A stretch of 64,000 nucleotides of DNA from Kribbella pratensis (GTDB lineage: Bacteria; Actinomycetota; Actinomycetes; Propionibacteriales; Kribbellaceae). A program made the position numbers and the translations under genes. Location: assembly GCF_004365355.1 (NCBI RefSeq), contig NZ_SODP01000001.1, positions 1,743,473 to 1,807,472 on the forward strand, in the 5' to 3' direction. Position 1 is the stretch's first letter, and each line of letters starts with the position of its first letter. Under the pieces are notes generated by a model. The model searched no databases, was not told the DNA's origin, and was given only the letters and a program-made list of their open reading frames with translations. Below are positions 36,290 to 50,059 of this stretch, one piece after another.

Positions 36290-38319
36290 CGAGGCTCCTT
36301 GGTCCGGTCGGCAGTCCGGTCCGCAGTCCGGTCCGCGGTCCGGTCGGCTGTTCGGTCGGCTGTTCGGTCGGCGAGGCGCTCGAGCATCGCGTTGTAGGCG
36401 TCGTACGAATCGTCGAGGCCGCTGTCGAGGTGGCGATCGATGCGTTTGGCAAGCTTCCCGTCCTGGACCGCCCATTGCAGTGCCAGCACCACGACGACGA
36501 TCAGCAACGGGATCTCGCCGCCGGCCCACGCGATGCCGCCCGCGGTGTGCTGAGTGGCCGCGAGATCGACCTTCCACGGCAGCTCGAGGTGCTGGTAGAA
36601 CGAGTCGCCGATGATCGCGCCGTCGGACATCAGGATGACCCCGAAGAACGCGTGGAACGGCATCGCCGCGAACAGGAAACCGAGCTTCGCCAGCGACGGG
36701 AGCTTCCGCGGCGTCTGGTCGACTCCGATGACGAGCCCGAAGTACAGGCAACCGACGAGCAGGAAGTGGGCGTTCATCAGTTGATGCGCCCAATGGAACT
36801 TCATCAGCGTGCCGAAGGCGTTGGTGAAGTACAGGCCGTAGTACGAGCCGATGTAGATGCCGAAGACAAGCAACGGGTGGTAGAGCGCCTTGAGCGGCCG
36901 GGAGTGCAGTACGGCGACGATCCACTCGTGCGGGCCGGGCTGTGCGTCCTTCGCCGCGGCGGGCAGGGCATTGAGCGCGAGGGTGAGCGGTCCACCGAGT
37001 ACGAGCGGAATCGGGATCAGCATGCTCAGCGCCATGTGCATCGCCATGTGGACCGCGAAGCTTGCGCCGGAGTACTTCCCGAGGCCCGAGCTGGTCACCA
37101 CGACGATCAGCACCCAGCCGAGCGTCCAGGCGATGGTCCGGCCGACCGGCCACGACTCACCACGGCGGCGGAGTCTCATCACGCCGGCGAGGTAGGCGGT
37201 GATGGCAGCGACGGCTGCGGCCACGAAGAGCAGGTTCGGACGCCACTGGCTGACCAGCGTCGCGAACGCCGGCGGCTTGCTGAGGTCGAAACCGAAGAAG
37301 ATCTGACTGATCGACGTCGGCACGAAGAACTGGGGTGGGGGAATCCGGGTCATCGCGATGCCGCAGGCAACGAAGGCCGCCGTGCCAGTGGTGAGGAGGA
37401 CAGCGCCGAGCGGAAGTTTGCTGCCGGCAACGGAGTACAGGCCGACGGCAACCAGCGCCAGAGCCGCCAACCGGGCCAGCGTGAGCCAGCCGGTGGCCGA
37501 GGCGAAGGGCGACGAGCCGGCCAGCTTGAACCACAGCAGAACGGCCTCGGTCACGATCAGCACTGCGGCACCGACCATCGCGACGCTGCGCCAGTGAGCG
37601 CGGTCGAGGGCACGGTTCCGGCGGCCGGTGGCGAGCCTGAGCGTCTGTACGACGGCCAGCCCGAGCAGCAGTTGCGCGACGACTGTCTGGTAGACGGCGG
37701 AATCGCCGGCGAAGTCGTGCCGCGGGCCGACCAGGACCTGGCCGACGACGACCGGGGCGAGCGAGCCGGCGAGCGCGGCCCAGAGCGCGATCAGGTACGC
37801 GACCCAGCGCACGGTCACCACGCTCGTGACCAGGACCACGATCGCGGCCAGGCAGGTGATCATCCAGGCCCGCCCGAAGTCGCCGGAGAACATCGCGAAC
37901 CAGAGCGCGCTCGGGCTGGCGATCCGGCCGAGCGACAGGCCGTTCGAGTCGGCCGAGTCGAATGCGATCAGGAGGCCGGAGCTGATCACCCAGACGGCGG
38001 CAGCCCGGCGTACGACGATCGGCTCGAACCACTCCGCGATCTCCAACTGCCGGCGCGAACCGGACTCGCGCACTGGTCGCGCCTTGCCCGCGACGAGCGC
38101 CGACGTGAGGGCGCCGACCGTCACCAGCGAGGAGAGGTCGGCCACCGCACGGACGAAGGTCGTGACGAGCCCGGTCAGCCGGCCGGGGTAGTCGCGGGCG
38201 ATCGGCAGATAGCTCGCCGAGCCCATCAGTGCGGTGGTGACCAGCGATGCGGCCAGAACGAGTACGCCCAGCAGGACGACGTACCCGATCAGCCACCGCC
38301 GGTGGCGCGTCGTACCCAC
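36286..38319 (-). CDS. Fused CopD-like and CtaG-like copper membrane protein
   Basis: 677 residues from the GTG at 38317-38319. The N-terminal half, about 1-345, is CopD-like with eight or nine membrane helices. The C-terminal half, about 370-640, is of the caa3-type CtaG family with the Met/His-rich helix VHMAMHMALSMLIPIPLV and HWAHQLMNAHFLLVGCLYFG, likely copper ligands. This fusion is known in actinobacteria and is thought to handle copper for cytochrome oxidase assembly or resistance. The C-terminal tail carries about six ADRT repeats, encoded by a 12-bp tandem repeat. It is first in an operon with copA. A putative operator lies upstream. Confidence 0.88.
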   Translation of the reverse strand: MGTTRHRRWLIGYVVLLGVLVLAASLVTTALMGSASYLPIARDYPGRLTGLVTTFVRAVADLSSLVTVGALTSALVAGKARPVRESGSRRQLEIAEWFEPIVVRRAAAVWVISSGLLIAFDSADSNGLSLGRIASPSALWFAMFSGDFGRAWMITCLAAIVVLVTSVVTVRWVAYLIALWAALAGSLAPVVVGQVLVGPRHDFAGDSAVYQTVVAQLLLGLAVVQTLRLATGRRNRALDRAHWRSVAMVGAAVLIVTEAVLLWFKLAGSSPFASATGWLTLARLAALALVAVGLYSVAGSKLPLGAVLLTTGTAAFVACGIAMTRIPPPQFFVPTSISQIFFGFDLSKPPAFATLVSQWRPNLLFVAAAVAAITAYLAGVMRLRRRGESWPVGRTIAWTLGWVLIVVVTSSGLGKYSGASFAVHMAMHMALSMLIPIPLVLGGPLTLALNALPAAAKDAQPGPHEWIVAVLHSRPLKALYHPLLVFGIYIGSYYGLYFTNAFGTLMKFHWAHQLMNAHFLLVGCLYFGLVIGVDQTPRKLPSLAKLGFLFAAMPFHAFFGVILMSDGAIIGDSFYQHLELPWKVDLAATQHTAGGIAWAGGEIPLLIVVVVLALQWAVQDGKLAKRIDRHLDSGLDDSYDAYNAMLERLADRTADRTADRTADRTADRTADRTKEPR
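36302..36373. repeat. 12-bp tandem repeat, six units, in the CopD-CtaG tail
   Basis: Six successive 12-bp units of the form GTCCGGTCSGCA (variants of the last bases), encoding ADRT repeats just before the stop. Variation between units is at silent or near-silent positions, implying selection or slow drift after expansion. Confidence 0.75.
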
Positions 38320-45527: not shown

Positions 45528-46199
45528 TCACACAGGCGTCTGGACCAGATCGCTCTCGTGTTGCTCGTGCAGCAGTTGCCGGGCGATCGAGCCGGATCCT
45601 TCGAGCTGGAGCGTGTGCGGCGTGTCCGGGAGGCGGAAGCCGAGGGTGGTGACGGTATCGAGGCAACGGGCCGGCCCGAGGATCGCCCAGCCGCCGCGAG
45701 TCTCGGGGGACAGGTCGAGGTCTTCGGCGAGGAGGAGGCCGTCGTCGAGCCAGGCGCGGGTCGCCGTACGGAGTGTGCCGCCGACCTCGCCGTACCGTCC
45801 GAGGACGAGGGACTCGCGCAGCTGGGCGGTGCAGCCGGTCTCGAGGCGTGCGGTCGTCGTACGGGTGACGTCGGCGCCGGCGGAGACGACGAACGGCTCG
45901 GCGTACCACTGGAGGCTGGCGCCGTCGGTGAGGCGGATGTCGACGTCCCAACGGGCGGAGCCGCCGCGCATCGCGTAGGCGACGGTGCCGGCCGTCTCTA
46001 CGATCTCGAGCCTGGTGGGACCGGAGACGGCGACCTCGATGCGTACTTCGTCGCCCGCGAGCAGGAGCGCACCCGCCGCGACGAGCGCGACGCGGACCAC
46101 TCCGGGCGGACCGTGCAGTCGCCGGGGCGACAGGTGGTCGGTCGTCAGCAGGCAGCGGTCCCGGACCGGGTCGGCGGTGACGTCAATGCGTGTGGACAT
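45528..46199 (-). CDS. ureD: Urease accessory protein UreD
   Basis: 223 residues, UreD/UreH scaffold that binds apo-urease and helps nickel insertion with UreF and UreG. Features: [54 protein letters not shown]. Shorter than the ~270 residues of proteobacterial UreD, as is usual in actinobacteria. Last gene of the ureABCFGD operon; its 5' end overlaps UreG by 17 bases. Confidence 0.88.
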
Positions 46200-46890
46200 G
46201 AGTGATCACGCTGCCGTCCTCGCCGATATGAGAGTGCGGCGCCATCGGACCGGGGTCGACCGGGGTGTGATCGCCGGTGCTTACGTGGGCCGTCATGTTT
46301 CGGACCCATTCCTTGAGCCTGGCGACCGAGGCTGGATCTTTCCGGGAGAGCGCGAGGACGGTTTTCCCGTCGCGGGCCGCCTCGGCGTCCTTCACCATCT
46401 GCTCGACATCCACCTCGACGTACGGCGCGAGGTCGGTCTTGTTGACGACGAGCAGATCCGCCCGGGCGATCCCCGGTCCGCCCTTACGCGCGACGTCACC
46501 GCCGCCGGCGACATCGAGGACGAAGATCTGCGCGTCGACGAGCGCGGGGGAGAAGGTCGCGGTCAGGTTGTCGCCGCCGGACTCGACGAGGACGACGTCC
46601 AGCGGGGCGAAGTCGCGCTCGAGATCCTCGACCGCGATCAGGTTCGGGGTGACGTCGTCGCGGATCGCGGTGTGCGGGCAGGCGCCGGTCTCGACAGCGC
46701 GGATCCGGTCCGGATCGAGTACGCCGGCGGAGCGCAGCAGGCGGGCGTCCTCGTCGGTGTAGATGTCGTTGGTGATCACGCCCAGGCGGAGCTCGTCGGC
46801 GAGTTCGCGGCAGATCGTCGCGATCAGCGAGCTCTTGCCGGTGCCGACCGGGCCGGCGACACCCAGCCGGAAGGAGCGGGTCTTAGGCAT
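46183..46890 (-). CDS. ureG: Urease accessory GTPase UreG
   Basis: 235 residues, SIMIBI GTPase that powers nickel delivery to urease. P-loop GPVGTGKSS near 13-21, [13 protein letters not shown], the metal motif Cys-Pro-His in [27 protein letters not shown] and the NKTD guanine motif. The C-terminal end has an HSHIGEDGS...HVHTH His-rich tail that may store nickel. ATG at 46888-46890; it overlaps the end of ureF by 8 bases. Confidence 0.93.
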
Positions 46891-47934
46891 GGAACAACCT
46901 CATTCTCTCGGTCACGTGCTTCTGCGCGTGGATGTCGATCAGCGGAGCGGCGTAGGCGGGGATCTTGTCGACGTCGGTCAGCGGCGCGACCTCGGCGACG
47001 AGCTCTTCGATGTCGTCGTGGAGGGCGGCCAGCCAGGTCGCGGCCTCGGCGGGGTCCACCGGCAACAGCTTCATCGACGCGGACACGACGGTCTGTGCAT
47101 CGTCGTACGCCACAACCCGAGCCAGCTGCTCCGCGGACAAGCCAGTCACCGCCGCCACCACCCCAAGCGCAACGGGCCGAGCGATCTCGCCATCCGCCGG
47201 CAGGTACTCCATAACCCCCGGCCAAACCCGCCCCGCAAGCCGCACCAACAACCGCCCCTGCCGCCGAACCACCCCCCGCACCACATGCGAAGACGTCCGC
47301 CCAGCCCAAGCCCTCTCCACGACCCCCAACCCACCAAGCCCACCCGGCGAGCCCGGCGCGCCCGTGGCGCCCAGCCCGTCCGGCCCGCCCAGTCGAACCG
47401 GCCCGCCCGGGGCGCCTAGCTCGTGCGGCCCGCCCAGTCGAACCGGCCCACCCAGGCCGCCCAGTCCGTGCGGCCCGCCCAGTCGAACCGGCCCGCCCGG
47501 GGCGCCCAGTCCGTGCGGCCCGCCCAGTCGAACCGGCCCGCCCGGGGCGCCCAGCTCGTCGGACCGTCCCAGTCGCCCCGGCCTTCCGCCCGGCGGCTCG
47601 GCCGCCTCGAGCCCGTCGGCGTCGAGTCGTGAGTTGGGGTTGTGATTTGGCGACCAGGTTTCACGATTCGGCGAAGGGGGTGTCGACCAATCCGCACGAC
47701 TCGCTGGTTTGGGGGTGGTGAGGACGACGTGGCGGGCCACGACCGCGACGGCCGCGTCTACGCGGGTGACTGTGCGGAGGCGGTCGCGGGCGTAGGCCGG
47801 GACCTCGTGCAGTTGCTTGCCGTCGGCGCCCAGCCCGGCGCGTACGGCGGGCTCGAGGCCGGCCGACTGGGTGTGGCCGCCGGTCGGCAGGCGTCCGTCG
47901 GCGAGCATCAGCGCGACCAACTCCGGCGTACCCA

Positions 47935-47935
<1 letters not shown>
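46883..47935 (-). CDS. ureF: Urease accessory protein UreF with a large Gly/Pro repeat insertion
   Basis: 350 residues, against about 210-225 for usual UreF. Residues 1-75 ([22 protein letters not shown], then [11 protein letters not shown]) and about 207-350 ([40 protein letters not shown], ending [18 protein letters not shown]) are normal UreF. Between them lie about 130 residues, first a Pro/Asn-rich stretch and then 15-residue repeats of [15 protein letters not shown] type, from a 45-bp DNA repeat. UreF, with UreD, binds urease and UreG. The insertion falls in a helix-to-helix region and may be a surface loop. The ATG overlaps the ureC stop by one base. Confidence 0.85.
47381..47560. repeat. 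45-bp tandem repeat within ureF
   Basis: The segment CGGCCCGCCCAGTCGAACCG recurs exactly at 47381, 47426, 47471 and 47516, a strict 45-base period. Degenerate units continue on both sides (about 47338-47575). The length is divisible by three, so the ureF frame is kept in every unit. Confidence 0.9.
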
Positions 47936-49630
<1,695 letters not shown>

Positions 49631-49638
<8 letters not shown>

Positions 49639-50059
49639 GATCCACCTCGCCGAGACGGTCTACCTCGCCGAGACGATCTACCCCGCCGAGGCTGTCGGCG
49701 CCGGCCGGCTTCAGCTGGATCCCCGGCACCCGGCGGTTGCCCCTCAGCGCCACCAAGTCCACCTCGCGGGAGGCGCCGGGCTCGAACCGCTGCGACGTCC
49801 CGGACGGTATGTCGAGCCGGAACCCTTGTGCGGCCTCCCGGTCGAAGGCGAGCGACGCGTTGGCATCGGGCAGGTGCAGATGCGACCCGATCTGGATTGG
49901 CCGGTCGCCGGTGTTCACGATCACCAGCCGCTGACGCTCAGCGTCCGTGCGGTCGGCGTTCAGTCGGATCGTGCCGGGCGCGACACGAAGTGCACCAGGT
50001 GCGACCGAGCGCCCCGCCGCCCCCTGTCCTTCCGTGCTAAGTCTATCGGCGTCAGCCAT
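49631..50059 (-). CDS. ureB: Urease beta subunit UreB
   Basis: 142 residues, longer than the usual 100-110. The core about 20-124 has [57 protein letters not shown]. An N-terminal extension of about 20 residues and a C-terminal repeat tail ([19 protein letters not shown]) flank it. The tail comes from three 18-bp units. UreB with UreA and UreC forms the structural trimer. The start ATG is 11 bases after the ureA stop; the end overlaps ureC by 8 bases. Confidence 0.92.
49644..49697. repeat. 18-bp tandem repeat at the end of ureB
   Basis: Three successive 18-bp units starting ACCTCGCCGAGACG (third copy partly diverged) encode the GEVDRL tail of UreB. In frame with the gene and next to the start of ureC. 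Confidence 0.7.

Follow-up and report, generated by a model that had tools for sequence, protein, structure and literature searches.

Palindromic repeats that contribute to protein-coding sequence have been described in Rickettsia and, as REPs, in several other bacteria. Rickettsia palindromic elements (RPEs) are about 150 bp long; excerpts of their description place nearly half of them inside open reading frames, and in frame within many protein genes, where they add a peptide (PMC10969869). REPs of the GTAG and CGTC super-families are, in the corresponding excerpts, small palindromes found mostly downstream of genes, between convergent or unidirectional genes, with some inside open reading frames (PMC3733652). 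The case described here lies in a free-living actinobacterium, and the word Actinobacteria is absent from the excerpts of both papers.

By analogy, the Kribbella element is like the excerpted RPEs a dispersed short palindrome, with a copy in frame within a protein gene: it is found in at least 20 places of the same genome and, in frame, in a conserved gene some of whose homologues are without it. It differs from RPEs, nearly half of which lie in reading frames according to the excerpted source, in that 84 of the 87 copies classified lie outside genes, with ureF the sole coding locus seen. Its extragenic position on the 3' side of genes (51 of the 84 between convergent genes, 28 of the 84 between tandem ones) recalls REPs, but it is built from three or four half-sites spaced at 33 and 45/55 nt, and a Y1 transposase is missing from six of six genomes searched. 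MITEs are built of inverted repeats and have no gene of their own. The Kribbella element likewise has inverted repeats, no own gene and an empty site at one locus (L105), but neither a target-site duplication nor a parent transposase was identified for it. The array beside it in ureF resembles intragenic minisatellites, with a 45-bp in-frame unit that is a multiple of three and other units in other species; it is unusual only in its host gene and in its growth beside an inserted element.

With RPEs and intragenic REPs as precedents, the kind of phenomenon is thus already known. In the open-licence PubMed Central literature, no report of a Kribbella palindromic element was found by title, and nothing was found on Kribbella together with urease and ureF. 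Among the matches listed for the wider repeat literature in the same collection Kribbella was absent, among those listed for a UreF insertion, loop or tandem repeat no such insert appeared by title, and among those listed for the half-site sequence the titles were unrelated.

We analyzed a 64,000-nt window of the Kribbella pratensis genome (G000), which includes a urease operon in the order ureABCFGD (Table 1). The frame of ureF, which lies between ureC and ureG, contains zero internal stops, and its product is the single UreF match in the whole genome. The match to the UreF family (8.8e-14; 52.5 bits against a cut-off of 23.3) is confined to residues 211-306, and many columns show the same residue in all 15 rows of a Kribbella UreF alignment that includes the window copy. 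An earlier sequence-only reading had called both halves of UreF intact, the insertion in frame and the rest of the operon functional in appearance. The first two points hold, with 350 codons open throughout and no frameshift ending UreF early; the third agrees with family matches of UreA, UreB, UreC, UreG and UreD, each above its own Pfam cut-off.

Table 1. Features of the ureF region; positions are those of the window
Feature	Position	Strand	Description
ureD	45528..46199	(-)	PF01774 5.4e-18
ureG	46183..46890	(-)	PF02492 6.8e-34
ureF	46883..47935	(-)	350 aa, ATG start, PF01730 match
ureC	47935..49638	(-)	PF00449 + PF01979
UreF linker	residues 67-208		142 residues between two conserved motifs; 16-17 in 8 other species
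In-frame dispersed element	47620..47703	(-)	residues ~78-106; profile R1 48.6 bits, E 4.1e-14
Outer half-site GAGTCGTG (coding strand)	47695..47702	(-)	33 nt start to start from next half-site
Inner half-site GAATCGTG (coding strand)	47662..47669	(-)	one change from GAGTCGTG
Inverted half-site CACGACTC (coding strand)	47624..47631	(-)	closes inner palindrome 47624-47669, 46 nt
45-bp minisatellite	47353..47583	(-)	5.1 copies as assembled, 15-residue repeats, residues ~118-195

The UreF insert consists of two parts, a copy of a dispersed element and, after it on the side of the C-terminal half, a tandem array. The array has the top score (348; period 45, 88% matches) among 29 Tandem Repeats Finder rows in the window, and the 45-bp recurrence reported earlier was recovered, with a 20-mer at 47381, 47426, 47471 and 47516. 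The attribution of the whole insert to this minisatellite stands for the array and fails for the Pro/Asn-rich stretch before it: this first part of the insert fits a profile of the dispersed element, which rules out the minisatellite as sole source. The array does not read as collagen-like Gly-X-Y, as the 15-residue unit breaks register and glycine is not found at every third residue. Strong strand asymmetry marks window positions 47100-47400, which cover the array end and the ureF codons after the array (GC skew to -0.44 and AT skew to +0.57 in 200-base windows). Elsewhere in the window, another array, of 12-bp units, spans 36301-36373 (5.9 copies, 91% matches).

A pseudogene or an assembly artefact, which might be suspected since tandem arrays are prone to misassembly, is very improbable here: the frame is open throughout, many core columns are invariant, the operon genes match their families, other assemblies contain inserts of other lengths, and the units of the array are not identical.

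The insert DNA of several species contains the series GAGTCGTG ... GAGTCGTG ... CACGACTC. A full element has three, at times four, 8-bp half-sites, a direct repeat at 33 nt followed by an inverted one, and its inner palindrome measures 45/46 or 55/56 nt. The ureF copies share this intergenic geometry, with 33-nt spacing followed by a 46- or 55-nt inner palindrome. Of the 38 genomes of the genus, 23 contain the exact pattern GAGTCGTGN{18,48}CACGACTC, with at most 24 matches in each against 0-2 for a backward control; in G001 and G012 (Kribbella jiaozuonensis) the sole match is an unrelated 51-nt coding stretch, and without both the count is 21 genomes. The forward sum over the genus is 223 exact sites, some copies of the unrelated coding stretch included. 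A relaxed pattern gave 20 sites in G000 and none in the control, and one of these, C3:1111159, is unlike the element. Among other genera of the order, the pattern was found in 7 of 207 genomes, with one or two matches each. Two outgroup species, G031 (7 sites) and G008 (3 sites), have pattern sites and no ureF copy, so the element either predates its place in ureF or spread separately.

Since these sites were found via their arms, exact conservation of the 8-bp arms within the site sets is partly by construction. The profile, R1, was made from the sequences of 35 intergenic copies and zero ureF copies, and its best match in the window is the first part of the UreF insert. It also marked at least 20 distinct places in G000 (39 two-strand matches merged; best 150 of ~9,000 first-look candidates scored) and at least nine in G019, K. 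rubisoli (18 two-strand matches merged; best 150 of ~9,000 candidates); the training copies came partly from these two genomes, where they match by construction, and the ureF copies lie outside the training set. None was found in G018 or G030 among the best 150 of ~9,000 first-look candidates per genome. A DNA search with a 136-bp segment of the insert returned 39 matches, none of them a convincing second copy, because the copies share little beyond the half-sites. Sub-families of closely similar copies occur within one species or clade (G033; G022/G024/G029; G000), which suggests recent spread.

We classified 87 distinct copies by position, including the relaxed-pattern sites of G000, using a crude codon-usage gene caller trained on seven genes of the window. 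The starting set was 98 loci, of which 11 were dropped (seven duplicates, three copies of the 51-nt coding stretch and one intragenic 34-nt match); three further ureF copies (G002, G017, G019), already recognised as lying within the gene, were left out of the classified set. Beyond the convergent and tandem copies counted above, the extragenic class contains four divergent copies and one with one neighbour unknown, and the remaining three of the 87 are two at a gene edge and one inside a gene, the ureF of the window. Other adjacent gene pairs from the same loci with gaps of at least 60 bases served as comparison, with 9 of 64 convergent. In the 80 copies that allowed the measurement, the median distance to the closest stop codon upstream was 48 bases. 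By this crude caller, ureF is the sole coding locus among the 87 classified copies; with 223 exact sites in the genus, further coding copies may exist. In-frame copies in many unrelated genes were not found among those 87. Residues ~78-106 of UreF are an in-frame translation of a Kribbella-specific dispersed repeat that is otherwise extragenic or at a gene edge among the classified copies. A further copy in G002 (L119) seems to end the urease operon, 40 bases past the preceding gene, taken as ureD from its distance, and 14 bases from the convergent neighbour.

One locus bears directly on mobility. G019, G034 and G013 lack the L105 copy of G000 (~110 bp): at the corresponding position their flanks are 10, 10 and 11 bases apart, respectively; in G012 and G032 the flank differs. 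This empty site indicates that the element inserts, at one locus. Because in the tree G013 falls outside the other three genomes, a gain in the G000 lineage is simpler than losses. No clear target-site duplication was seen at L105, the one locus inspected, and a terminator-like hairpin sits right at the empty site in G019, G034 and G013. A search for the Y1 transposase (PF01797, RAYT family) found it in 0 of 6 Kribbella genomes and, as a control, in 5 of 14 named genomes, and a RAYT-mobilised REP was rejected on this result. Together, these results point to a genus-specific element family of unusual three-part geometry for which that search, in six genomes, is so far without a mover. Two copies lie ~1 kb apart in G000, G013, G017 and G002 (L107, L122/L123, L134/L135, L159/L160). 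In G019 at L146, ~960 bp between paired copies are missing and one element is left, as if lost via recombination between elements.

UreF was found in 28 of the 38 genus genomes, that of K. pratensis included. The linker between the two conserved motifs has 16-17 residues in eight species, and in the other 20 it measures 18, 21, 24, 25, 26, 32, 39, 41, 41, 41, 51, 60, 60, 64, 66, 80, 93 (G033), 142 (G000), 199 (G002) and 201 (G005) residues. In a tree of UreG and the UreF core, with the root placed at the midpoint for drawing only, a branch with 98/93 support separates the eight short-linker species from the other 20. The earlier suggestion of an expansion that varies among strains is supported by in-frame variation from 16 to 201 aa over 28 genomes, but these genomes are different species, not strains. 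Five species that share one clade (L006, L008, L009, L012, L014) have a second, different palindrome in their ureF linker (~40 nt, GGAACA ... TGTTCC), again read in frame; the loose pattern GGAACAN{18,40}TGTTCC gives 15-25 matches in those five genomes against 2-5 in a backward control, and many of its matches outside ureF are unrelated.

The arrays within the linker differ from species to species. At the matching place a 12-bp unit is repeated 2.8 times in G019, which stands closest to G000 in the tree, G002 has 27-bp and 54-bp arrays, and G005 has a 15-bp array with 98% matches. Because the repeat units differ, the arrays of G000, G002, G005 and G019 most likely arose separately, as independent expansions, and slippage in G+C-rich sequence is the likely route of growth.

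We regard it as quite probable that the UreF insert is composite, an in-frame element plus a separately expanded array in a flexible linker that tolerates them. In the history we prefer, one element would have inserted into a short UreF linker in the ancestor of the 20-species clade, and would have been retained because its length and flanks kept the frame open. Later, the element would have eroded or been lost in some of the 20 species, and the G+C-rich stretch after it would have expanded separately per species via replication slippage. The outcome would be a flexible surface linker tolerated by UreF, with little or no new protein function. Scored by eye, the 20 species comprise nine with recognisable arms, four with remnants (G012, G021, G024, G036) and seven with none (G001, G004, G011, G013, G022, G026, G029). 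On these by-eye labels, ‘no element’ is clustered in the tree (5 changes; 1 of 500 shuffles as low), and ‘intact element’ requires 7 changes (156 of 500 shuffles as low). A single gain at the base of the clade is thus a preference that the tree does not prove. The series, 20 longer-linker species against eight short-linker relatives, would allow one element in one protein gene to be traced through gain, erosion, loss and secondary repeat growth, and the ureF insert clearly exemplifies how stray repeat DNA can become protein.

The inner palindrome could be measured in 10 ureF copies from nine species and is always 46 or 55 nt long (each 1 modulo 3); outside ureF, of the 82 copies with one of the four common lengths, 19 have either of these two. 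In the ureF register, for example, 80 of 94 readings of 45-nt copies and 27 of 28 of 55-nt copies are free of stop codons; since most copies read through, an insertion stays open with little luck.

The same regularity can be read differently: the element may persist in ureF because it functions at the level of DNA or mRNA, as either a protein-binding dyad or a structure tuning ureG and ureD expression, with the amino acids as a by-product. We consider this unlikely, though it has several points in its favour. The half-site codons CCG AGT CGT (present twice, six codons) are identical in seven species wherever the residue is the same, which is more uniform than pure neutrality suggests and counts against a neutral view. 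Across the aligned gene, same-residue pairs agree in codon in 2525 of 3924 cases, and one codon is used in all seven species at 37 of 131 invariant-residue columns; AGT makes up 2.9% of 137 serine codons in seven window genes. The 46- or 55-nt inner palindrome is kept in all 10 measurable ureF copies, and roughly one helical turn separates the spacing class 45/46 from 55/56. The palindrome interior is without clear base-pair covariation, so that conservation is of the arm sequence and not of a fold. An RNA hairpin was rejected, with no clear covariation in sets of 49, 14 and 16 copies and two single columns low in shuffles (~0.02 and 0.005), and Rfam gave no match at gathering score in 14 loci, the ureF locus L098 included. 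One-turn spacing and absent covariation would fit a protein dyad better than an RNA hairpin.

Several points count against it. The seven compared species were picked for recognisable half-sites, shared descent inflates the codon count, and conversion between arms or copies could also keep arms alike. In the remaining ureF of the compared species AGT accounts for 10.7% of 103 serine codons, which weakens the contrast, and element length modulo 3 is fixed by the reading frame anyway. Moreover, the site is dispensable, as the element is eroded in four species and gone in seven, scored by eye. We regard as doubtful the specific form of this idea, in which a putative protein binds the Kribbella half-site array (GAGTCGTG, 33 nt, an inverted one, 45- or 55-nt palindrome), mostly between convergent genes, and the array in ureF overlaps the code and is held by DNA-level selection. 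If true, a chromosome or transcription site would be written into the linker of a metal-delivery helper.

Returning to the preferred reading of a tolerated composite insert, we asked where in UreF the linker lies. An AlphaFold model of UreF from three sequences had a mean pLDDT of 34, was unusable and was left out of fold searches; disorder and surface position are accordingly suggested by composition and by weak alignments between a profile of 15 Kribbella UreF sequences and UreF chains of solved structure (6jc4, 9.6e-06; three Helicobacter pylori chains, 0.02-0.05). These alignments put the insert level with about residue 98-100 in H. pylori UreF. We infer a linker between two helices, in agreement with predicted helices 42-73 and 202-237 of the unusable model. 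Excerpts of the report on the H. pylori UreG/UreF/UreH structure list an F-tail loop among the UreF parts that contact UreG (PMC3792862). Given the many columns that do not vary across the 15 aligned rows, a flexible, tolerated linker is expected.

A long linker could instead be under selection for protein function, as a tether for UreG, UreD or urease. Several species do have long linkers (201, 199, 142 and 93 residues), but no common protein pattern was seen beyond element remnants, the repeat units differ between species, and relatives manage with 18-66 residues and eight species with 16-17. Nothing in favour of the tether proposed by the sequence-only reading emerged beyond length itself, and we judge it improbable. 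Most likely the linker tolerates all inserts, and the insert probably has little effect on urease.

Two side observations concern these genes. The UreF frame of G030 and G027 extends ahead of the conserved PELVA motif, with AGTAGAG-type repeats in G030, and these proteins may have an N-terminal expansion as well. In the operon of K. pratensis, the C-terminal tail of urease beta has a small in-frame expansion of its own, an 18-bp unit present three times at window positions 49637-49690 and read as LGEVDR repeats.
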